Program-made: the position numbers and the translations under genes
Assembly (NCBI GenBank): GCA_029261395.1
Contig: JAJDBJ010000007.1
Coordinates: 1-54,782 of the forward strand
DNA from: Nitrospinaceae bacterium
Lineage (GTDB): Bacteria; Nitrospinota; Nitrospinia; Nitrospinales; Nitrospinaceae
Direction: 5' to 3'
DNA length: 54,782 nt
Notes under the pieces: generated by a model
Seen by the model: the letters and a program-made list of their open reading frames with translations, nothing else
Database searches by the model: none
Told to the model about the DNA's origin: nothing
Part shown: piece after piece, positions 618-9,939 of the stretch
Position numbering within the stretch: position 1 is the stretch's first letter
Layout: each line of letters opens with the position of its first letter

Positions 618-738
618 TATCCACCCTTCTCCGAAAGGGAGGGACAAAATCACCCATAACCCTAAATCCCCTCGGCCCCTCCTTCGACAGGCTCAGAACA
701 GGCTACTTCGGTCCTCAGAATGACAATACTTAACTATT

Positions 739-772
739 TGTCATTCTGAGCGTTAGCGAAGAATCTGTGTTT
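739..772 (+). repeat. Dispersed repeat, GTCATTCTGAGCG...GAATCTGTGTTT family
   Basis: A direct copy recurs at 1009-1046. Variants with different middle parts occur at 40148-40191 and 41882-41941, and an inverted copy at 8492-8526. The ends are kept while the centre varies, suggesting a modular intergenic element. It always lies outside genes. Confidence 0.6.
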
Positions 773-781
773 AGATTTTTA

Positions 782-806
782 AAACCGCCCGATAAATCGG
801 GCAACT
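782..806. repeat. Terminator-like hairpin repeat (copy 1)
   Basis: Hairpin GCCCGATAAATCGGGC preceded by an A/T tract. Read on the minus strand the stem is followed by GGTTTTAAAAAT, so it resembles an intrinsic terminator. A sister copy with compensating base changes (GCTCGATAAATCGAGC) lies at about 18442-18458, showing that the stem rather than the sequence is kept. Confidence 0.5.
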
Positions 807-907
807 ACAGAAAGAGGAATTAACCATCAACCACCCCCGACCCCTACTTTGGAAGGAGGAGAGCCTCTTATGCAAAGGTCTCCTTAGTAAGGGGAGAAGT
901 ATGTTGA

Positions 908-926
908 GTCCAGCGTGACGCTGGAC
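908..926. repeat. Dispersed palindromic repeat, CCAGCGTSACGCTGG family
   Basis: Near-perfect palindrome GTCCAGCGTGACGCTGGAC. Family members are at 6374-6390, 8423-8439 and 10063-10078, with degenerate copies at 42009-42026, 43764-43783 and 50900-50917. All seven lie between genes, mostly next to other repeat families, which fits a REP/MITE-like mobile or structural element. No transposase is visible. Confidence 0.6.
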
Positions 927-1073
927 CCGAATTGCGTCCGGCGCTAGCCGGTGTCACCCTGAGGCTATAGCCTGTCCAGAGCTTGCCGAAGGGAAGGGCG
1001 ACAGGTGTTGTCATTCTGAGCGTTAGCGAAGAATCTGTGTTTTGACTTCAAGGGACAGGATTACAGGATAGAT

Positions 1074-1292
1074 TTAATCCCCACCACGCTGGAACAGAAG
1101 CCCCTGTTTGCCGAACCCGACCCACGTCCCGGCGACCATTTGATGGGTGGGGTGGACCGGATCAACCGGGATCATGGACCCGACACCGTATTCTTCGGAG
1201 CGCAAGGCGTGGCACGGGAATGGAAAATGCGGTGCGGGTCGCGGTCCCCGCGCTACACCACCCAGTGGGATGAACTGTTAAGGGTGGGCTGA
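1074..1292 (+). pseudogene. UmuC-type polymerase, C-terminal remnant
   Basis: An open frame of about 70 codons without a plausible start reads into the conserved tail of the Y-family polymerase UmuC. Recognisable elements are a PLFAEPD stretch, then DRINRDHGPDTVFFGAQG, and the hallmark WKMRC...SRSPRYTTQWDELLRV ending at a TGA at 1290-1292. Full-length UmuC is about 420 residues, so roughly five sixths of the gene is missing; upstream DNA at once becomes intergenic repeat. UmuC is the error-prone lesion-bypass polymerase of the SOS response, and the remnant cannot be functional. The break next to repeats suggests loss by recombination between repeat copies. The identity of the tail is clear; when and how it was truncated is inference. 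Confidence 0.75.
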
Positions 1293-1428
1293 AAATCATA
1301 AGTGGGAACTGGTGGAGGCGGGGGAGCCTCTACTGTCTCATGAACAAAACAATAACCTACTGTATTTAAACACTTTTAAAAAATTAAAGATATTTGAATG
1401 TACCACTCAAAGGATAATTTTGAGAACT

Positions 1429-2679
1429 TCAGGGGTATAGTTTTGTATTAAGATTTTCCGTTATTTTATTGATGAATTTTAAAAATACGGCCTCTACTTT
1501 TTCTAGTTCAGTAATCGCTTCATCAATAGTATTTATCTTATATTCATCTTTTATAAAGCCTTCCATTGAATGTCCCTCTTTCTCGATATTATTAATTACT
1601 TCAGTTAGCTCTTCAGAATGTCTTTGGCTTCCTACCGAAAGTAATAAGGATACAAAAACTACGACGAGGAAGAATACAAAGAATGACTCCAACATTGACA
1701 CTGCTTGTGAAATAGGGGTGATAGGTATCAATTCGGGGATAGACTTAAAAATAAGATTGTTAAAACTATAGTAAAAAAAAGTAAATGTTGTTGGTGGTTG
1801 AGAATAACTAAAATTCTGGTTTTCAATAATATAAAGAGCATAATTTATTGCGCCAAAAGAGAAAATTGTTAAGACAACTAACAAGAAAATCGTGAAAACA
1901 TAAAAAACGGAATTGAGTCTACTATTCTGATAATCTTTTAACTTCTTTGCTGCAAAAAGACACACCCTATTGAATAATACTGAGAATTGGAGATTGTTAG
2001 TCCATTTTCTTAATTGATCATCCCCTAACTTTTCCATTGATGATTGTTTTATGTCCTCATCCAATTCGAACGATGCGGAAGCATGTTTGCGAATTCCCGA
2101 AAAAAATTTAATGTGCAATCGAAATATATCTGAAGGCTTAAAAACTAATATAAATCTTTCGACATAAACAATAAAAAGAAGCAGTAGAATTATTGTGGAA
2201 GTGGTCCATAAGGTAGTTTTATTTGAAATGCTGAAGGTTAGAGCAAAGGAAATTAGAAAAAGTGTAGATATGATAAAGTTATATTTCAATGATACAAAAA
2301 AGGATATAATTGCATTAACAAACCCAAATGCTAATACCCAGCTCTTTTGTTTGAAAATAAAATATGGGATTCTCCAGAATAGTATAATTAATGGGTAGAA
2401 TAGTAAGAAAAGCGACAATCTTAATATGGTTTTTGTTTTTACTAAGAGAAAAATTAAAGCAATAATTCCCATTAAAATAAAAAACTTATAGTTTAGAATC
2501 CAGATTTGATTTGGGAAAAACTCATTGATTAAGAATAAATCAAAATCAAATATAAATAATTTTATCCAAACATAGACCCATACTAAGATAGCTAAAATCT
2601 CTCCAGTTATCTTTTCAAAAGAACTTATAGGTGTTTTGTTAGACGTATTCTCTTCTGATCTCTCCGGAATATCATTCAT
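1429..2679 (-). CDS. AT-rich multi-pass membrane protein, unknown
   Basis: The 416-residue product has no family I recognise. Hydrophobic segments group at about residues 30-175 (five or six likely membrane passes, including an IIALIFLLV and a LSLFLLFYPLIILFW stretch), then a charged soluble part at about 180-250, two more passes near 260-280 and 325-350, and a charged C-terminal tail of about 65 residues. The gene is clearly richer in A and T than its GC-rich neighbours and uses many AAA, ATT and TTT codons, a usual sign of recent acquisition. No good ribosome-binding site is seen before the ATG at 2679. It stands alone; the DNA on the right up to about 2985 is also AT-rich and empty. It may be an accessory or defence-type membrane protein, but nothing in the sequence shows a function. 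Confidence 0.7.
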   Translation of the reverse strand: MNDIPERSEENTSNKTPISSFEKITGEILAILVWVYVWIKLFIFDFDLFLINEFFPNQIWILNYKFFILMGIIALIFLLVKTKTILRLSLFLLFYPLIILFWRIPYFIFKQKSWVLAFGFVNAIISFFVSLKYNFIISTLFLISFALTFSISNKTTLWTTSTIILLLLFIVYVERFILVFKPSDIFRLHIKFFSGIRKHASASFELDEDIKQSSMEKLGDDQLRKWTNNLQFSVLFNRVCLFAAKKLKDYQNSRLNSVFYVFTIFLLVVLTIFSFGAINYALYIIENQNFSYSQPPTTFTFFYYSFNNLIFKSIPELIPITPISQAVSMLESFFVFFLVVVFVSLLLSVGSQRHSEELTEVINNIEKEGHSMEGFIKDEYKINTIDEAITELEKVEAVFLKFINKITENLNTKLYP

Positions 2680-2984
2680 GTTTGACCAAAAATTATAATT
2701 TATCTAGGAGTTCATGCATTAAAGTTGATATTTAGAGCAAATAGATGAAAAAATCAAAATTCCCTATTTTCATTTTAAATTTATTTATAAGATGGGAATA
2801 GTTCAAAAAGCTATGGCTAATATTAAAACCAAATTGTTCCTTTTCCCAAAAACTACACACTTTAGACAGCACTAAATTGAGAATATCTAGTGATTAAAAA
2901 AATTCACCATAAGGATTCTAGTGGATTTAATCACAATCAATTTTAAAATGTGGTTTTTTCTCTTAAAGACCACATTTGTCAAAA
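2680..2984. other. AT-rich non-coding stretch
   Basis: About 300 bases of AT-rich DNA with no supported gene on either strand. It includes the region upstream of the minus-strand membrane protein gene, with a TATAAT at about 2694-2699 on the minus strand but no convincing -35 element. Base composition changes sharply to GC-richer DNA at about 2985, which looks like a junction. Confidence 0.5.
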
Positions 2985-3120
2985 TTACCCCTCCCTATCA
3001 TATGTCCTTTTTTCAACGCGATCTACCTCTGATAATCGTACGACATATTCAGCCAGAGCATCTACCCTAGGGTGACAGCCGCTATTCCCAATACAGAAGT
3101 CGTTGAAGATCTAGTCGAGA
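2985..3120 (-). pseudogene. mnmE 3'-tip relic with fused open tail
   Basis: Minus-strand positions 3120-3081 match the last 40 bp of the intact mnmE at 8562-8602 with four substitutions and one deleted base. The frame reads L-D-stop-IFNDFCIG against LDQIFNDFCIG in mnmE. Three of the four substitutions are at third codon positions (ATC/ATT, TTC/TTT, GAC/GAT); the fourth turns CAG into TAG, and the deletion removes the normal stop. The same frame then stays open for 32 more codons to a TAA at 2985-2987, giving a charged stretch that includes RLSEVDRVEKRTYDREG. I do not recognise that tail. The segment is best read as a decayed attachment site or a fragment of a second mnmE, followed by the end of an unrelated gene. 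Confidence 0.65.
3081..3120 (-). repeat. Putative attachment-site half (mnmE tip, distal copy)
   Basis: Direct repeat partner of 8562-8602, same orientation, containing the identical core CCCAATACAGAA (TTCTGTATTGGG on the coding strand). SGI1-type integrative elements insert in the last 18 bp of mnmE (trmE/thdF), around exactly this codon string. A distal copy about 5.4 kb downstream of the intact gene is what such an insertion would leave. The site call is inference from this geometry; no integrase gene is visible between the copies. Confidence 0.5.
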
Positions 3121-3123
3121 AAA

Positions 3124-3147
3124 GGTGTCAAGTCTCTTCTTGACACC
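3124..3147. repeat. Perfect hairpin GGTGTCAAG-N6-CTTGACACC
   Basis: Nine-base inverted repeat with a TCTCTT loop, directly beside the mnmE-tip relic and about 65 bp after the end of the secreted-protein gene at 3211. A shortened second copy containing CAAGTCTCTTCTTGAC is at 4651-4666, at the breakpoint of the truncated HEAT gene copy. It lacks a T-run, so a terminator role is doubtful. Confidence 0.5.
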
Positions 3148-3210
3148 ATAAGGAACCTTCCAAAATCAACTCCTCCGACTGAGGTCTGTGGGTAGAGAGT
3201 CATAATGGTT

Positions 3211-4299
3211 TCAAGGGCTATCCAGGAGAGACTTGCACTGATCCTCAGTGAGGGCCGCTGAATGGTATTCAAATGTACCGCAGTAATCAGGGAAGGGCGT
3301 GACTCCCCAAATCCAAAGTGCCTGGCAGGCCCGTCCCGGATACTGGGCAGGTGGTTTGAAGTGACCACTTTCATTATTCACAATCTCAACTTTACCTTTC
3401 CAGACTTTCATCTCTCCCGCCGAAAATAAGGAATCCCACCCACCGTTTAATTGCGAATGCCTCACATGCAGGTAATTTGTTTTGTGATCTCTATAATTCC
3501 CATCGTATGTGAATTGTTTGTAGTATTGTTTGCACGCTTGAGGATCCTGTGCATTTTCAAAACGGTCGTAACGCCGGAGCCTAAGCTCCTCGACCATCCC
3601 TTCGCTACCTTTAGGCAAAACATAGATGTAGCGGCCGTCCGGAATCCCCTTTTGCCCTTTTTTGATTTGTGTTACCTGATTAAGTTTTGCCCAGTTCATT
3701 TCCAACTTATCCCGGTCCTGATCGTCACATTTCCAGCAATTCTCTCCTGCAGTGTCATTCTTGCATTTCCCGTCTTTCCAACTGCATTTACCCCGTGAGG
3801 TGTCGAGCCCTTTGGGTTTCCAGGTGACATTCGTTGACACGGTTTTACTCTTATTCCAAATTTCGGTCGGCATCCAGCAGGTAAGACCTATATACCTCCA
3901 GTCTGTTTGTTTCACCGTGAACTTGATATGGAGTTGTTCAGGGAAACGAATCTCTTTGATTAACTTTATAGTGCCTGTAGCGGTCCAGTCACCGCCTTTG
4001 CTTGTTGCCGTAATGTCGTCGGACACCAGTGGCCTCATATATTCGCTTGTACCGACTGCCGTGAATGTCATGGTCCTATCACATGAGAAAGGAAATATAT
4101 ATTTCTCGCAGGCGCGTATTTCAAAAGGTATTTTGGCGCCCTCTTCAAAAGGGCCTTTACTGGTGAGCTTCGCTGTCATGGTTCCACCGCCGCTGGTACC
4201 CGTACATTTATAAGCATCCAGAGATGTGTTTTCTGCGCTGGCGGATACAAAGGCGGGAAACAGAAGCAGGATCGCAAGAACAAAGATCAGTCTTTTCAT
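3211..4299 (-). CDS. Secreted cysteine-rich protein, unknown
   Basis: A 362-residue protein with a clear signal peptide (MKRLIFVLAILLLFPAFVSA, cleavage near residue 20-23), so it is exported. The mature part carries about a dozen cysteines spread over its length (near residues 32, 64, 74, 140, 173, 179, 188, 191, 256, and towards the C-terminus), including a CxxC (CWKC) around residue 188. This suggests disulfides in the periplasm or outside the cell. The first half looks beta-rich, with alternating hydrophobic and polar residues. I recognise no family. The start is supported by an AGGAGAG ribosome-binding site eight bases before the ATG. No operon partner: the left side is the mnmE-tip relic, the right side a repeat and the duplicated HEAT leader. 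It lies inside the candidate island. Confidence 0.75.
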   Translation of the reverse strand: MKRLIFVLAILLLFPAFVSASAENTSLDAYKCTGTSGGGTMTAKLTSKGPFEEGAKIPFEIRACEKYIFPFSCDRTMTFTAVGTSEYMRPLVSDDITATSKGGDWTATGTIKLIKEIRFPEQLHIKFTVKQTDWRYIGLTCWMPTEIWNKSKTVSTNVTWKPKGLDTSRGKCSWKDGKCKNDTAGENCWKCDDQDRDKLEMNWAKLNQVTQIKKGQKGIPDGRYIYVLPKGSEGMVEELRLRRYDRFENAQDPQACKQYYKQFTYDGNYRDHKTNYLHVRHSQLNGGWDSLFSAGEMKVWKGKVEIVNNESGHFKPPAQYPGRACQALWIWGVTPFPDYCGTFEYHSAALTEDQCKSLLDSP

Positions 4300-4418
4300 C
4301 GTAAACTCTCCTGTTGCGGATATTTGGATAACCGTACTTTATTTCAGATTACCGATAATGTCAATTACTTGGCATGGCCCGATATCACTCGACAAGCTCA
4401 GGACAGGCTTGCGCAAAG

Positions 4419-4636
4419 GGGGCATATCGGGTCGTCCTTCTATATACTGTGTATTGGCACCTGCCGCTTTGTCTTTCGCCCGTGGCGATTGACCGGTGGT
4501 GGCCTCGAAAATAATCTTTTCCTCTCATGTAAGGTGGGTTTCCTGTTATGGATGATGAGTTCGATGCAATTGATAAATTAGCGGATATTGAAAAATTAGA
4601 GGATGGCTCGAGCGAAAATATCAAGCGGTTGCTTGA
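4419..4636 (+). repeat. Direct repeat copy 1: HEAT-gene leader and first codons
   Basis: About 217 bp repeated at 5418-5635 with only three substitutions and a constant 999-bp offset. It holds the non-coding leader and the first 29 or 30 codons of the HEAT-repeat gene. The coding part of the two copies is identical and the differences lie in the leader, so the duplication is recent. Confidence 0.85.
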
Positions 4637-4688
4637 AAAAAAGGGGGCAAGTCTCTTCTTGACTATATCCCCCTCCGACATAAAATGA
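4548..4688 (+). pseudogene. Truncated copy of HEAT-repeat gene
   Basis: From the ATG at 4548 the first 30 codons are the same as those of the intact HEAT gene at 5547 (MDDEFDAIDKLADIEK and onward). At about 4637 the match stops inside the first repeat helix, and the frame runs on for 16 unrelated codons to a TGA at 4686-4688. The leader with its ribosome-binding site is also duplicated, so a 46-residue peptide could still be made. The breakpoint coincides with a copy of the CAAGTCTCTTCTTGAC hairpin motif also found beside the mnmE-tip relic. The likeliest history is a partial tandem duplication, or insertion of a 1-kb segment carrying the gene at 4745. Confidence 0.8.
4651..4666. repeat. Shortened copy of GTCAAG-CTTGAC hairpin motif
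   Basis: CAAGTCTCTTCTTGAC, identical to the core of the hairpin at 3124-3147. It marks the exact breakpoint region of the truncated HEAT gene copy. A second short GGGGGCAAG / CCCC flank is present around it. Confidence 0.4.
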
Positions 4689-4744
4689 GCAAGTGATGAA
4701 AACGACAAAGATTTAATGGAACTTGCTAGTGAGGAGATTAAAAG

Positions 4745-5149
4745 ATGGCAAAAGAAATGAGCGAAACCGATGCGAATATTTTAATTCTTAATGAAATAGC
4801 AGATAATCTCCAGTTGACCCTTAAATACCTTGATTCCAACGACTCGAAAACAAAAAAAACCATACCCCCACTTTTTAAAGATGAAATTAAGAAAATTATT
4901 TTAGAAGCTCAGGAGTATAAAAATGGGAATAGTGGTGATGAGAGTGATGCAGACAGGTGGATAATAGTGTTGGGGAAACTTTCACTTCAAGTAGAAGAGC
5001 CGGAATCTGACATCAGTTCGTTTGCGGAATATGAAAACAGTATATTTAAATATAAGGCTGATCTGAATAAATGTATGGAAGAAAGCAAAGATAAACTGGC
5101 TAAAGTTTTGTGCTTATCTCTATACGCTCGACGCTTTGCAAAGAGATAA
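4745..5149 (+). CDS. Small soluble helical protein, unknown
   Basis: The 134-residue product is acidic, highly charged and predicted by eye to be mostly helical (for example EMSETDANILILNEIADNL and FKDEIKKIILEAQEYK). It has no signal peptide, membrane segment, metal motif or family that I recognise. The start at 4745 has a GAGGAG ribosome-binding site ten bases upstream. The gene is AT-richer than the housekeeping genes of this window and sits in the segment between the two copies of the HEAT-gene leader, so it may have arrived with that segment. The alternation of 'diverse helical gene' and 'repeat-protein gene' could suggest a scaffold or immunity role, but this is not shown. Confidence 0.6.
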   Translation: MAKEMSETDANILILNEIADNLQLTLKYLDSNDSKTKKTIPPLFKDEIKKIILEAQEYKNGNSGDESDADRWIIVLGKLSLQVEEPESDISSFAEYENSIFKYKADLNKCMEESKDKLAKVLCLSLYARRFAKR

Positions 5150-5546
5150 ATGGCCCTCTTCATCCCAACAATCTGCCCGATATGCTCCGCAAAGGATGGC
5201 TAATTTAAAATGGGTTCCTGCGAAATCAATCTAGAACAACAGACTGCCACGCCATTCAAATGATTGAGCTGGTTCCTCCTGGCTTCCATCACAAAGAGGG
5301 AGATATTCTATCCCCTTTCCTTCGATAAACTCAGGATGACAAAACCTGCGCCCTTTCCTTCGGCAAGCTCAGGACAGGCTCCACAAAGGGGGAGCAAATC
5401 ATCCTTATTCACAAAGAGGGGCATATCGGGTCGTCCTTCTATATACTGTGTATTGGCACCCGCCGCTTTGTCTTTCGCCCGTGGTGATTGACCGGTGGTG
5501 GCCGCGAAAATAATCTTTTCCTCTCATGTAAGGTGGGTTTCCTGTT
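5150..5546. other. Non-coding stretch with repeats and HEAT-gene leader
   Basis: No gene is supported. It contains a CTTCGATAAACTCAGGATGAC element near 5310-5340 and a CTTCGGCAAGCTCAGGACAGG element at 5357-5377, both members of dispersed families, then the second copy of the leader repeat from 5418. A possible promoter for the HEAT gene is TTGACC at 5488-5493 followed at 15 bp by AATAAT; the ribosome-binding site AAGGTGGG starts at about 5530. Confidence 0.5.
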
Positions 5547-5635
5547 ATGGATGATGAGTTCGATGCAATTGATAAATTAGCGGATATTGAAAAATTAGAG
5601 GATGGCTCGAGCGAAAATATCAAGCGGTTGCTTGA
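5418..5635 (+). repeat. Direct repeat copy 2: HEAT-gene leader and first codons
   Basis: Second, gene-proximal copy of the 217-bp repeat at 4419-4636. This copy is continuous with the full HEAT-repeat gene and is therefore the likely original. Confidence 0.85.
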
Positions 5636-6221
5636 GTTGTCGCATGATGCCGATGATGAGGTTCGGTGTAGAGCGATTGAAGCGTTTGAAAACTTTGAGC
5701 CGACGGATGCGATCCTCTCCCGGGTGAGGGAAGGGATCAACGATGAGGATGAAATCGTTCGGGCGATGAGCATCGAACTATTGGGTGATTGGGTCGATGT
5801 CGATTCGATTGACAACTTGTATCGGGCGTTTGGCGATGTGAGTGACATTGTTCGGGCGGCCGCACTCACCAGCCTGGGGCAGATGGGTCGTAAAGACGTC
5901 GCCGGGGTTCTGGAAGGGAAGTACCCTCTGTTTGAAGGCATCGAAAAGGTATCTGCGGCAATGGCGTTGTACTCATTGGGTGAAAAACAATACCTCGGTG
6001 ACCTGTTGTCGTTTTTAGAGGATGACTATTATTTGATACGGTGCCGGACCGCCAACTTGCTCTGTAGCTTTGTGGATGATCCAGACAAAGCGAAAGTGAT
6101 CGAGAAAATGGAATCTGTTTTGGCGCTGGAAAAAACCGAGGCGGCCGCATCTTCCCTGTCGGAAGCCATCGCTGATCTTTCGGGTGAGGAAGAGGATGAT
6201 GACGAGGATGCATACCCCTAA
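5547..6221 (+). CDS. HEAT-repeat protein
   Basis: The 224-residue product consists of HEAT-type helical repeats, each with the DxxxxVRxxAxxxLG pattern: LLELSHDADDEVRCRAIEAF near residue 27-46, then INDEDEIVRAMSIELLGDW, FGDVSDIVRAAALTSLGQM, a shorter unit near residue 125-150 and LEDDYYLIRCRTANLL near 157-172. Proteins of this kind are solenoid scaffolds that bind other proteins; PBS-lyase-type members occur widely without known substrate. There is no signal peptide. The tail is acidic (EEEDDDEDAYP). Ribosome-binding site AAGGTGGG lies upstream of the ATG. A truncated copy of its 5' end, including the leader, sits 1 kb upstream, so the locus has been rearranged recently. Confidence 0.8.
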   Translation: MDDEFDAIDKLADIEKLEDGSSENIKRLLELSHDADDEVRCRAIEAFENFEPTDAILSRVREGINDEDEIVRAMSIELLGDWVDVDSIDNLYRAFGDVSDIVRAAALTSLGQMGRKDVAGVLEGKYPLFEGIEKVSAAMALYSLGEKQYLGDLLSFLEDDYYLIRCRTANLLCSFVDDPDKAKVIEKMESVLALEKTEAAASSLSEAIADLSGEEEDDDEDAYP

Positions 6222-6373
6222 CCTCAAATCCCCCCGGCCCCCTTCAAGAAGGGGGAGATATCCTGCCGCCCTTCGACAGGCTCAGGGCAAATTCTGCAAG
6301 AGAAAGTCATAACCCCACCTGTATCCTCCCCTTGGTAAGGGGAGGACCGGGCAAGGCCCGGCGCAAAATAGGG

Positions 6374-6390
6374 TCCAGCGTCACGCTGGG
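6374..6390. repeat. Dispersed palindromic repeat, CCAGCGTCACGCTGG copy
   Basis: Copy of the palindrome described at 908-926. It lies in a 230-bp intergenic gap (6222-6452) that also holds a CTTCGACAGGCTCAGGGCA element near 6272 and a CCTGTATCCTCCCCTTGG element near 6319, the inverse of the first bases of the window. Confidence 0.6.
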
Positions 6391-6452
6391 AATCCCTCCG
6401 GCCCCCTTCAAAACGGGGGAGCTTATCGGTGTCCATCTGTGGTTAATTAATT

Positions 6453-6917
6453 TTATTGTTTAGAAAATTGGCGGATGTAATGGATCAACTGCCAGACCTG
6501 GTCGTCGGTCAGGCTGGGGAAGGCGAACATGGAGGTTTTGGGCGATCCGTTGCGGATGATCCAGAACAGTTGGCCGTCCGGTAAGGCTTTCATGGTTTCC
6601 GCGCAGGTGAAGTTTCTCGGCGGCGGGGTGCTTTCGAAACCGGACTCGGCTTTTCCGTTGCCTTTCTCTCCGTGGCAGGTTTTGCAGGCGATGGGTTTGC
6701 CCTGCAATTGAAATAGGGTTTCACCGGCTTTGAGAGTTTTGTCGTTCAGCGGCAGGGGATTCTGCATTTTTAAAAATTCTTGCGGGGCGGCGGGGGTTTT
6801 TCGGTTTTGCGGGCAGTCGGCGAACAACAGGCCGGGGGAGAGCAGGAGCATCAACCCACCGATCAAAAGAAACTGCGTGCTCAGTTGAAAAGCCCGCTTC
6901 TCAAAAATATCCTTCAT
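6453..6917 (-). CDS. Mono-haem c-type cytochrome
   Basis: A 154-residue exported cytochrome. A signal peptide or anchor lies at about residues 11-33 (FQLSTQFLLIGGLMLLLSPG). The haem site is CKTCH at residues 78-82 in a typical class I setting (GETLFQLQGKPIACKTCHGEKGNG split here by family convention), and a Met in the PKTSMFAFPSL stretch (about residue 120) is the likely sixth ligand. The C-terminal helix VWQLIHYIRQF matches cytochrome c6/cbb3-type endings. It should carry electrons in the periplasm. The start chosen is the ATG at 6917 because AGGAGGAACT lies directly upstream; the frame is open to 6947. It is in the candidate island together with another cytochrome and a nitroreductase, but spaced from them by repeats, so no operon is evident. 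Confidence 0.85.
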   Translation of the reverse strand: MKDIFEKRAFQLSTQFLLIGGLMLLLSPGLLFADCPQNRKTPAAPQEFLKMQNPLPLNDKTLKAGETLFQLQGKPIACKTCHGEKGNGKAESGFESTPPPRNFTCAETMKALPDGQLFWIIRNGSPKTSMFAFPSLTDDQVWQLIHYIRQFSKQ

Positions 6918-7120
6918 AGTTCCTCCTCGCCAAGGTTCACAGTTCACTCTTTAACATTATACCCCTTTGACCTGAACCGCGAACCACGCGAAAAATACGA
7001 AAGGGTTTTCTTTTCCGATCAGTCTTAAATCTTTTCTCTGTGGCCTTTGTGCTCTCCGTGGTGAATATATCTTGCCGTCCTTTCCTTCGACAGGCTCGGG
7101 GCGGCAGGTTTTCATTCGGA

Positions 7121-7726
7121 TCAAAAAGTGTTTTCCTTCACCAGCTCGCTCAGCGGCAGTTGTCCCGGTTTGGGCCAGGGATCCTTCGTGCCTTTGCCGA
7201 TGGCCACCATCGGCCCGAGTACATGATCCTCCGGAAGGTTGATCAGCTCGGCGACTTTTTCGATGTCGAATCCGATCATAGGGCAGGACTCGTAGCCCAT
7301 CGCCTTGGCGGCCAGCATCAGGGTTTGCATGGCCATGCCAATGGATCGCTGAGCTTCGTCGCGCTGTAACCATTCCCGTCCTTCGTGAAACGGCTTCATC
7401 CAATTGACCAACAGGTCGTTCACCTCTTTGGGTGCATTCTGCCAATAGCGGTCCGGATTTTTTTGCCAGGCTTTGGTATCCCCTGCCATGATGATGAGTA
7501 GAGACGCATCGGTCATTTGAGCCTGGTCGTTGCCGAATTCCGTACGGATTTTTTTCCGCAGATCAGGATCGCGGACGATGACGAAACGCCAGTGCTGTAT
7601 GTTAAAGCTGGTGGGCGCCTGAATGGCGGCTTCCAGTAGTTTGGTTTCTTCCTCCTGGGACAGTTTGTGCTGAGGGTCGTACTGCTTAATGGCTCGCCGC
7701 TGGTATATGGCGTCAAACGTATCCAT
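7121..7726 (-). CDS. Nitroreductase-family flavoprotein
   Basis: The 201-residue product has the nitroreductase family layout: an N-terminal FMN-binding motif RRAIKQYDPQHKL (residues 10-22), an APTSFNIQHWRFVIV segment (about 37-51) contacting the flavin, and a C-terminal GFDIEKVAELINLPEDHVLGPMVAIGK stretch (about 149-175) typical of family members. These are NAD(P)H-dependent FMN enzymes reducing nitro compounds, quinones or enones; the natural substrate cannot be told from sequence. Length matches the short subfamily close to 200 residues. No signal peptide, so cytoplasmic. The ATG at 7726 follows an AGGAGATGG stretch. Flanking repeats separate it from both cytochrome genes. Confidence 0.88.
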   Translation of the reverse strand: MDTFDAIYQRRAIKQYDPQHKLSQEEETKLLEAAIQAPTSFNIQHWRFVIVRDPDLRKKIRTEFGNDQAQMTDASLLIIMAGDTKAWQKNPDRYWQNAPKEVNDLLVNWMKPFHEGREWLQRDEAQRSIGMAMQTLMLAAKAMGYESCPMIGFDIEKVAELINLPEDHVLGPMVAIGKGTKDPWPKPGQLPLSELVKENTF

Positions 7727-7825
7727 GCTCCATCTCCTTTTTTTGTTTGATCGGTCACGGTAAGTTGTACCACATCAACAAGGGGGAGTTCATCAACCAT
7801 CCCCGGCCCAACTCCCATCGTTTAT

Positions 7826-8284
7826 TTATTTCAATTTTTCAGTAATCTTGAATGCACTATGACAGGCAACGCATGAGCTCATAATGACATCGACCTCTTT
7901 TAATATCTCTTTACTCGTGGCCCCCGGAATCTTCGCCGCCAGCTCATCAAAACTTTTATGAACTCCCATGCCCATCGCTTTGAAAGACATGGGCAGTTTG
8001 GCAATCAATGCCGGATTAACGTCCTGGGCCATACCCATCCCATTTCCAATCGCGGATTCTTTGACCCGCTCGAAATCATCCGTTGATAAGCCTTGAATAA
8101 TACCTTTCAGGCCGACCAATAGAGATCTCATTTCACCGAGAATAAGCTCGCGCTCTTCAGGGAATAAGCGGATCTCCATTCTCTTGTCCACCTTTACCGC
8201 ATTGCCATATTGAATTTTATAAACGACAAATCCAACACTGGCGATCCATAATGCAAAAGAAACAATCGCGATTTTTTTCCACAT
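7826..8284 (-). CDS. Cytochrome c'-like haem protein
   Basis: The 152-residue protein starts with a hydrophobic segment (residues 4-23, IAIVSFALWIASVGFVVYK), a signal anchor or signal peptide. The only haem motif, CVACH, is at residues 138-142, eleven residues from the end. That position, with helix-rich sequence before it, is the hallmark of four-helix cytochromes c' and c-556 rather than class I cytochromes. Family members sit in the periplasm and bind NO or CO, or transfer electrons. Methionines are frequent (MGMAQDV, FKAMGMGVHK), and a Met in the first helix could be the sixth ligand, as in c-556. It lies directly downstream of the mnmE end across a repeat-rich gap; transcription is independent or reads through from mnmE. 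Confidence 0.8.
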   Translation of the reverse strand: MWKKIAIVSFALWIASVGFVVYKIQYGNAVKVDKRMEIRLFPEERELILGEMRSLLVGLKGIIQGLSTDDFERVKESAIGNGMGMAQDVNPALIAKLPMSFKAMGMGVHKSFDELAAKIPGATSKEILKEVDVIMSSCVACHSAFKITEKLK

Positions 8285-8561
8285 AATTTATCTTTCATTC
8301 ATTGAATTGTCCGTCTTATTGAACCAATCCTGTAACCCTGTCAGAAAAAGGAATTGTTATCAACTACCCCCAGCCCCTCCTTTGGAAAAAGGGGGCGGCG
8401 AACCGTCGCAGGTAATTTTGGGTCCAGCGTCACGCTGGAAATCACCCCAACCCTCAAATCCCCCCGGCCCCCTTCAAGAAGGGGGAGTATAAAACACAGA
8501 TTCTTCGCTTTTGCTCAGAATGACAGACCTTGATTTCATCTGTGTTCATCTGTGGTTAATT
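8285..8561. repeat. Cluster of dispersed repeats downstream of mnmE
   Basis: Non-coding. It contains a TCCAGCGTCACGCTGGA palindrome at 8423-8439, a run of CCCCGGCCCCCTTCAAGAAGG type at about 8460-8485, an inverted copy of the CTGAGCG...GAATCTGTGTTT family at 8492-8526, and TTCATCTGTGGTTAATT at about 8545-8561. The last string recurs near 6432. All families are found elsewhere in the window. Confidence 0.6.
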
Positions 8562-8602
8562 GCTATTTCCCAATACAGAAATCGTTAAAAATCTGGTCGA
8601 GG
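8562..8602 (-). repeat. Putative attachment-site half (mnmE 3' end, proximal copy)
   Basis: The 3' tip of intact mnmE, coding for LDQIFNDFCIGK and stop. Partner of the decayed copy at 3081-3120. The shared core TTCTGTATTGGGAA overlaps the known SGI1-family integration core in mnmE. Confidence 0.5.
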
Positions 8603-9939
8603 AGGTCGTCGACGAAAGTTTTGCCGAGGATGCCACCCAAATGCTCGAGGGCGCTGTTGAGATCGACGGCGATCAGGTCTTCGGACCGGTCTTCCTGCAA
8701 GGATTGTGAAACGCGTGTGAGTGCTTCCTGAGTCTGCGCCAACGCCTGGCGGTGCCGCTCACGCGTGATGACCACCGCCTCGCCGGAAGGTCTCCCGCCC
8801 AGCGCGGACTGGTACAAGGCGTCTTTCAATGCTTCCATTCCATCCCCCGTGGTCGCGGAAATTTCCAGAGCTGTTCTCTGCCCCAATTGTTTTAAAAGGG
8901 CGTTTTTGTCGATCATCGTCGGCAGGTCGCTCTTGTTGAGGAGGACGAGTTTCTTTTTATCCGCCACTTCCCTGATGAGTAGGGCGTCGTTGGCATCGAG
9001 TGCGTGCGATCCGTCGAAGATCACCAGCGCGAGGTCCGCCTGCGCCAGCGCGTGGCGGGTGCGCTCAATGCCGTGCTCCTCGATCTCCCCCGCTTCGTGG
9101 CGGAGCCCGGCGGTATCGACAATCGTGATGTGGATGTCGTTGATGCGCACGCGTTCTTCGAGCGTGTCGCGCGTGGTGCCGGGGTGGGGGGTGACGATGG
9201 CGCGGTCTTCCTGGAGCAGAGCGTTGAGCAGGGACGACTTGCCGACATTGGGTTTGCCGACCAGGGCGACCCGTAACCCTTCGCGGTAAATCTTACCCTG
9301 GCGGTAGGAGTCGACCAGTTTTTGAATTTCAGCGTGGATGCTTTGGATGTTTTTGTCGTGTTGCTGTTTTTGTTTGAACTCTAAACCCTCTTCCGGGAAG
9401 TCAATCGCCGCTTCCAGTTGGCCGAGGACCTGCAGGAGTGCATCGTACAGCGCGTTGAGTTTGTCCGAGAGCTGGCCCTTGAGTTGGGCGAGGGCGGACG
9501 TCAGGGCTTTGTCCGACGCGGCGTGGATGACGTCGGCTACCGCTTCCGCCTGTGACAGGTCAAGCCGTCCGTTGGTGAACGCCCGCCGTGTGAACTCACC
9601 GGGCTCCGCCGGGCGCGCTCCCTGGTCAAGCACCAGTTGTAAAATTTTCGATGAGACATAGGCGCCGCCGTGGCCGTGGATTTCGATCACGTCTTCGCCG
9701 GTATAACTGTGCGGCGCGCGGAAATAGATGAGCAGGACTTCATCGACCGCTTGGCCGGTTGCGGGATCGATCAGGTTGCCGTAGGTCACCCTCTGCGGTT
9801 CGAGGTCGGCCACCTGCGTGCCACCTTGCGATTGGAATAGGATCGACGCGATGCGGGTGGCATCGGGACCGCTGATGCGGATGATGTTGATGCCGCCTTC
9901 ACCCACAGGTGTGGCAATGGCGGCGACTGTATCGTTCAT
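8563..9939 (-). CDS. mnmE: tRNA uridine-5-carboxymethylaminomethyl GTPase MnmE
   Basis: MnmE with its partner MnmG modifies U34 of certain tRNAs to the 5-carboxymethylaminomethyl form, using GTP hydrolysis and a formyl-THF-derived carbon. The 458-residue length is normal. Visible parts: N-terminal folate-binding domain (TVAAIATPVGEGGINIIRISG at residues 4-24), helical domain, an inserted Ras-like G domain with G1 GKPNVGKSS at 228-236, the DTAGLRHE G3 motif, NKSD for guanine, and the C-terminal FCIGK whose Cys is catalytic. It is the last gene of the leftward rpmH-rnpA-yidD-yidC-mnmE block. Between yidC and mnmE there is a 166-bp gap with repeats and no jag gene, which is often present there. 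Its 3' end may have served as an integration site, yet the gene is intact. Confidence 0.97.
   Translation of the reverse strand: MNDTVAAIATPVGEGGINIIRISGPDATRIASILFQSQGGTQVADLEPQRVTYGNLIDPATGQAVDEVLLIYFRAPHSYTGEDVIEIHGHGGAYVSSKILQLVLDQGARPAEPGEFTRRAFTNGRLDLSQAEAVADVIHAASDKALTSALAQLKGQLSDKLNALYDALLQVLGQLEAAIDFPEEGLEFKQKQQHDKNIQSIHAEIQKLVDSYRQGKIYREGLRVALVGKPNVGKSSLLNALLQEDRAIVTPHPGTTRDTLEERVRINDIHITIVDTAGLRHEAGEIEEHGIERTRHALAQADLALVIFDGSHALDANDALLIREVADKKKLVLLNKSDLPTMIDKNALLKQLGQRTALEISATTGDGMEALKDALYQSALGGRPSGEAVVITRERHRQALAQTQEALTRVSQSLQEDRSEDLIAVDLNSALEHLGGILGKTFVDDLLDQIFNDFCIGK

Follow-up and report, generated by a model that had tools for sequence, protein, structure and literature searches.

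Displaced copies of the mnmE 3′ end mark a genus-restricted insertion hotspot in Nitrospinaceae

We analysed a stretch of 54,782 nucleotides from a Nitrospinaceae bacterium (GenBank assembly GCA_029261395.1, contig JAJDBJ010000007.1, positions 1 to 54,782), referred to here as the window. An open reading frame (ORF) on its reverse strand, 8563..9939, is an intact mnmE gene of 458 aa. Downstream of this gene, on the same strand and in the same orientation, lies a decayed and displaced copy of its 3′ tip (3081..3119). The host (G000) groups with metagenome-assembled genomes of Nitrospinaceae, and its named relatives in the same genus include Nitrospinaceae Ww603 (G005), PL23a_bin.2 (G001), Nitrospina sp. 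CR05bin29 (G002) and Nitrospinota 8_1_Oct_SF_Bin69 (G007). mnmE is present in every relative searched, mostly at full length, and its 3′ end has been displaced repeatedly.

Displaced mnmE ends and the DNA around them

Aligned by BLAST to the mnmE 3′ end, the tip copy spans 40 columns at 87.5% identity (35/40 bp), with four substitutions and one gap. Three of the substitutions are silent (ATT to ATC, TTT to TTC and GAT to GAC) and the fourth is a nonsense change (CAG to TAG), while the AAA preceding the stop is short of one A. A preliminary description of this DNA had reported a recurrence of the tip near 3081 in the same orientation, with three silent third-position changes, the CAG to TAG change and a one-base deletion, and the alignment and codon comparison bear it out. 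Searching the whole genome of the host recovers the copy with E values of 1.1e-6 (model R1) and 3.6e-7 (model R2), and within the window its ungapped score is 30/35, against 20/35 for the next-best place. Besides mnmE, the tip was found at no other place in the genome, and on this ground we rejected the idea that the copy arose as a dispersed repeat.

The copy stops at 3119 because a dispersed repeat of about 55 bp (AAAAGGNGTCAAGTCTCTTCTTGAC..., forward strand, 3120..3172) begins at 3120, with an edge that is visible in the alignment. As the limit of the copy is set by this repeat, which recurs at about a dozen other places in the genome, the original copy may have exceeded 39 bp. The repeat itself, running from AAAAGGGGTCAAGTCTCTTCTTGAC to CATAAG, sits at breakpoints, both at 3120–3172 and on contigs C63, C6, C47, C8, C17 and C29 of the same assembly. 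Part of it resembles the flank of an insertion sequence in G007 (L125).

To place the copy among its relatives, 64 genomes of the order were searched with a model built on the last 60 bp of mnmE. The model finds a match in 51 of them, and exactly one in each matching genome outside this genus. Inside the genus there are two matches in G000, two in G002, three in G005 and one each in G001 and G007, the last on a contig that stops 1.4 kb past mnmE and is too short to judge for extra tips. The extra tips (one in G000, one in G002 and two in G005) are restricted to this genus among the 64 genomes. All of them lie on the mnmE strand, downstream of mnmE and at most 5.5 kb away; they match mnmE over 76, 68, 46 and 35–40 bp, with E values of about 1e-6 to 1e-23 across the copies. 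G001 has no extra tip but retains an internal mnmE fragment (nt 1160–1266).

The genes preceding the extra tips differ, being a cytochrome in G002, NhaA and an M90 peptidase in G005, and a secreted protein in the window. The two tips of G005 stand in tandem with unrelated genes between (NhaA; an S15-type hydrolase and the M90 peptidase). The stop of an unrelated gene falls 3–6 nt ahead of the tip copy in both G002 (cytochrome) and G005 (M90 peptidase). The extra tips lie at differing positions with differing neighbours.

Past codon 435, in the final 72 bp, four sites distinguish the G002 copy from the mnmE of that genome; all are silent, and one is the stop (TAG to TAA). At the single variable codon (N/H/V), the copies resemble the mnmE of their own host. 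The G002 copy ends (L039, 3742–3759) in TTCTGTATTGGGAAGTAA, the published left repeat of SGI1, at a point where its own mnmE ends differently; within a coding motif this is possibly chance.

Three genomes of the genus, sampled over about 855 kb (about 715 genes), were scanned together with the short mnmE contigs for local direct partial gene copies. Clear non-paralogous fragments derive from mnmE alone (in G000, G001, G002 and G005), and the other matches are mostly paralogous gene pairs, with a few weaker ones (about 67–70% over 160–200 bp, or 29–50 bp).

The DNA that follows the tip in the window also points to an earlier mnmE. The roughly 50 bp that follow the copy (3030..3080, reverse strand) align in register with the stop to the DNA after mnmE in G005, at a score that 0/500 shuffles reach, and the shared repeat TGTCACCCT lies at most 8 nt from a stop in 0/715 sampled genes. 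The DNA left of 3081 therefore once abutted an mnmE, and the earlier view of the copy as the footprint of an insertion at the mnmE 3′ end stands. The resident mnmE of the window is followed by DNA that differs from that after the tip copy. Downstream of the G002 copy, the sequence is weakly similar to that after mnmE in G007 (5/500 shuffles), partly via repeats.

Two cytochrome genes are followed by similar material. In the window, DNA of the TTAACCACAGATG type after the cytochrome (6418..6452, reverse strand) is likely displaced mnmE downstream DNA; it follows the stop in 3/710 sampled genes, two of which are mnmE and the cytochrome. In G001, the cytochrome stop is followed by DNA like that after the local mnmE stop (GTCCTCC..GGACGGCGAA, present at four places in 910 kb). 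The cytochrome and mnmE stops also have AAATAG in common, which is short. Judged from these short sequences, the post-cytochrome DNA of the window and G001 may represent additional displaced ends of mnmE that retain little or none of the coding part.

Within mnmE itself, silent sites single out one block. In a comparison with two sister genera that have single tips (five, seven and three sequences), codons 436–448, a 39-bp block at 8596..8634 (reverse strand), are silently conserved in this genus only. Silent identity in the block is 0.938 versus 0.647 over the gene (rank 1/446 windows), whereas the same block ranks 187/452 and 115/446 in the sister genera. Run inside the genus only, the test was ambiguous, with three peaks, and it was the sister-genus comparison that settled the matter. 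Silent conservation in this genus falls below average over the last 10 codons of mnmE, where the SGI1 core lies. The left edge of the block is the start point of the two longest tip copies (G002 and G005), both undecayed or little decayed, which begin at mnmE nt 1301–1306 (codon 435–436), 72–76 bp from the mnmE end. These two starts are at most 5 nt apart, in different species and beside different neighbours; the other displaced ends are cut by repeats or start differently. This pattern favours either a DNA-level role for codons 436–448 or homogenisation by recombination there.

The accessory interval downstream of mnmE

In the complete genome G008 of a sister genus, 63 bp lie between mnmE and the sigma-54 regulator that comes after it. 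In this genus, accessory DNA separates the two genes by 3.4 to over 10 kb: the regulator is 3.4 kb from mnmE in G002 and 6.6 kb from it in G001, and contig ends fall between the two in G000, G005 and G007. Ancestrally, the sigma-54 regulator stood directly after mnmE. Position 1 of the window probably lies opposite the start of contig C10, with a gap in the assembly between them, and since the regulator is on C10 the accessory interval measures 9 kb or more rather than 5.4 kb. We conclude that the mnmE 3′ end in this genus is a real, genus-restricted insertion hotspot with stranded mnmE ends.

The comparison with relatives that the preliminary description had proposed supports an insertion hotspot, since mnmE and the regulator, 63 bp apart in the sister genus, are kilobases apart here. 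Its picture of a single 5.4-kb island with the old flank to the left is not supported: the DNA to the left is also accessory, with 36% GC at 650–3070 versus 52% right of 8563 and a umuC remnant, and the ancestral neighbour is on contig C10.

Between the tip copy and mnmE, the window encodes a secreted Cys-rich protein with no Pfam match (3211–4299, reverse strand), an ORF at 4745–5149 (forward strand), a HEAT-repeat gene (5547–6221, forward strand) with a partial duplicate of its start (4419–4636), a CBB3-type cytochrome (6453..6947, reverse strand), a nitroreductase (7121–7726, reverse strand) and a cytochrome c′-like protein with a weak Pfam match (7826–8284, reverse strand). The Pfam scan agrees with the gene content listed earlier from the letters (secreted Cys-rich protein, duplicated HEAT gene, two cytochromes, nitroreductase and no integrase). 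The CBB3-type cytochrome is kept near mnmE in four species, its closest homologues lying at this locus. The HEAT duplication, a 218-bp direct repeat of 99% identity (4419–4636 and 5418–5635), takes in the first codons of the gene and the region upstream of them; where the duplicate breaks off there stands a copy of the dispersed repeat that also truncates the mnmE tip.

Left of the tip copy, tblastn identifies a 3′ remnant of umuC (residues 344–416; 1068..1286, forward strand). The remnant starts at residue 344 both in the window and in G007 (L125), and neither genome has an intact close umuC homologue. At the G001 mnmE locus only the last 20 or so umuC codons are apparently left, with an intact umuC elsewhere in that genome (C10). 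In G005, an intact umuDC adjoins the regulator.

Routes to the stranded mnmE ends

On balance, we lean towards serial replacement of the mnmE 3′ end, resembling that of icd by e14, with the tip at 3081 as one old end. Incoming foreign DNA would carry its own mnmE 3′ end, and recombination at or near codon 436 would swap the last ~72 bp of mnmE and leave the gene intact. The displaced end and any DNA trailing it would be pushed downstream behind the new cargo, and repeated rounds would build an array of mnmE, cargo, old tip, cargo and older tip. Without a function, the old tips would then erode through point changes, small deletions and inserted repeats. Under serial replacement, the 39-bp block may be the recombination site and codon 436 the putative point at which the tail is replaced. 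The arrangement expected by analogy with e14 and icd, an intact mnmE with a same-orientation displaced 3′ end beyond cargo, is seen in the window, G002 and G005. As the agent, a lost site-specific recombinase with e14/icd-type tail replacement is slightly ahead of RecA-type recombination.

Several observations weigh against serial replacement. The boundaries of the displaced pieces vary, as in the internal fragment of G001 and the post-cytochrome DNA of G001 and the window, which starts at about the stop codon. The usable loci come from five genomes only, and the G005 copy that starts at codon 436 is itself decayed. The preliminary description had suggested looking for an integrase near mnmE in neighbouring strains, but PF00589 (Phage_integrase) has no match on any mnmE contig of the genus (five genomes). 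PF00239 (serine recombinase) has none on the mnmE contigs either, and the sole match in the genus lies on another G001 contig. No viral contig bearing mnmE turned up in a search for a mobile vehicle that used mnmE itself, the SGI1 18-mer and two tip patterns, one degenerate and one genus-specific, and the cargo genes look like ordinary chromosomal genes.

Recombinases do occur elsewhere in these genomes. The phage-type integrases of G002 and G006 are on contigs other than those of mnmE. A phage-type integrase of about 400 aa that is found genus-wide (G000 C54) was judged unrelated, as it sits by nuoB and looks domesticated; this protein (L213, 4405–5619) has a short N-terminal part of integrase type that a long linker connects to a Phage_integrase domain. 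Contig C21 of G001 (L217, 156–3417) has a tandem run of three tyrosine recombinase genes, all on one strand, reminiscent of a recombinase-trio element.

Homology-facilitated illegitimate recombination is a possible, though less probable, route to the same arrangement. Here, linear DNA from related strains, taken up by transformation or otherwise transferred, would recombine homologously within mnmE on one side, and its other side would join by microhomology close to the mnmE 3′ end. Cargo would be added and an old tail of variable length left behind, with no recombinase needed. This fits the lack of a recombinase at the locus, the ordinary cargo and the varying boundaries (about −218, −76, −72, −46, −39 and near 0). 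It also has precedents, since many hotspots without mobile elements recombine at flanking core genes (PMC5635113), and the additive arrays of type VI secretion system immunity genes have been explained in this way (PMC5361080). However, the two independent joints fall at most 5 nt apart, right where a conserved block specific to the genus begins; measurements show the process to be rare (PMC3240628, PMC5361080), and no other sampled gene shows a clear case. Illegitimate recombination accounts better than serial replacement for the absent recombinase and the variable boundaries, but not for the shared start at codon 436.

The unrelated-gene stops just ahead of tips that start at the same codon, together with a genus-only conservation beyond coding need, also bring to mind gene cassettes. 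In such a scheme, the last ~72 bp of mnmE would be an attC-like recombination site that delimits small cassettes and is served in trans by a recombinase elsewhere, by housekeeping Xer or by a RecA pathway. The mnmE tip folds no better than shuffles into an attC-like hairpin (z 0.6 to 1.1), and integron-like folding was rejected on this result; we consider the cassette scheme improbable.

The preliminary description had attributed the copy to SGI1-like integration, in which a tyrosine recombinase acts at the last 18 bp of mnmE and the island is trimmed later. The identity of the G002 copy end to the SGI1 left repeat (PMC11237444, PMC4958241) and the tandem islands known at this site in Gammaproteobacteria (PMC7449626) are in line with it, but that 18-bp identity lies inside a coding motif and can be chance. 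Copies match mnmE over up to 76 bp, far past the 18-bp core, and conservation resides in codons 436–448 and not in the last 10 codons, which counts against an SGI1 site. The constant GGGAAGTAA half, which is on the distal copy here, lies on the mnmE side in relatives of SGI1 (PMC9035990). Pfam scans of the genes in the window and in the G002 and G005 intervals, with the G001 and G007 intervals covered by reading only, found no Xis, mobilisation or transfer genes. With no SGI1-like genes in the window or the G002 and G005 intervals, and no tyrosine or serine recombinase on the mnmE contigs, integration of this type now appears quite unlikely.

In-situ tandem duplication of the mnmE tail and adjacent genes, followed by decay, would agree with the shared orientation, the proximity and the likeness of the copies to the mnmE of their own host at the variable codon. 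It predicts no foreign downstream DNA, however, and is disfavoured by the DNA and genes after the displaced tips, which differ from those after the resident mnmE; nor is there duplicated cargo beside the tips, and we regard this origin as very unlikely. Chance similarity or an assembly artefact is scarcely credible: the named relatives are metagenome-assembled genomes and contigs end at the locus in three of the genomes, but the E values of about 1e-6 to 1e-23, the several independent assemblies and the decay in the copies, which an assembler would not create, all argue otherwise.

Comparison with known systems

In a lineage represented here by metagenome-assembled genomes alone, the mnmE tips form a fossil record, readable from sequence, of successive insertions next to a housekeeping gene. 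Such recurrent insertion matters because no recombinase at the locus explains it. The locus offers a testable case for how integrase-free hotspots gain genes, through integrases since lost or through recombination anchored on core genes, and the genus-restricted silent conservation of the 39-bp block indicates a specific, testable DNA site in mnmE.

Cis-mobilizable elements (CIMEs) are att-flanked elements without an integrase that take part in accretion. The mnmE locus resembles them in that cargo lies between copies of a gene-end sequence without an integrase, and differs in that no cognate element able to mobilise it in trans was found here. Hotspots driven by recombination at the core genes that flank them, and arrays built by homology-facilitated illegitimate recombination, share with it a recombinase-free turnover beside a core gene and stranded 3′ ends (PMC5635113, PMC5361080); here, in contrast, what is left stranded comes from the tip of the anchor gene, a housekeeping gene, and has a start common to two species. 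The SGI1 family and other trmE/mnmE islands use the same target gene end and also occur in tandem arrays (PMC7449626, PMC9035990), with an 18-bp core and Int, whereas the tips described here are longer, start at codon 435–436 in the two longest copies and come with no Int, Xis or mobilisation genes that we could find.

In arrangement, the locus is like e14 in icd of E. coli K-12, where insertion left a 165-bp partial duplicate (icdC) with mostly silent differences (PMC11148124). There, as proposed here, the element supplies a replacement 3′ end, the gene stays whole and the old end comes to lie beyond the element, with mostly silent differences (PMC11148124). Because e14 encodes the integrase intE and none was found on the mnmE contigs, we do not file the mnmE locus as a member of this system, but only as one that works in a similar way. 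The duplicate is also longer in icd, at 165 bp compared with about 72 bp here, and the mnmE ends differ further in forming serial arrays in several species.

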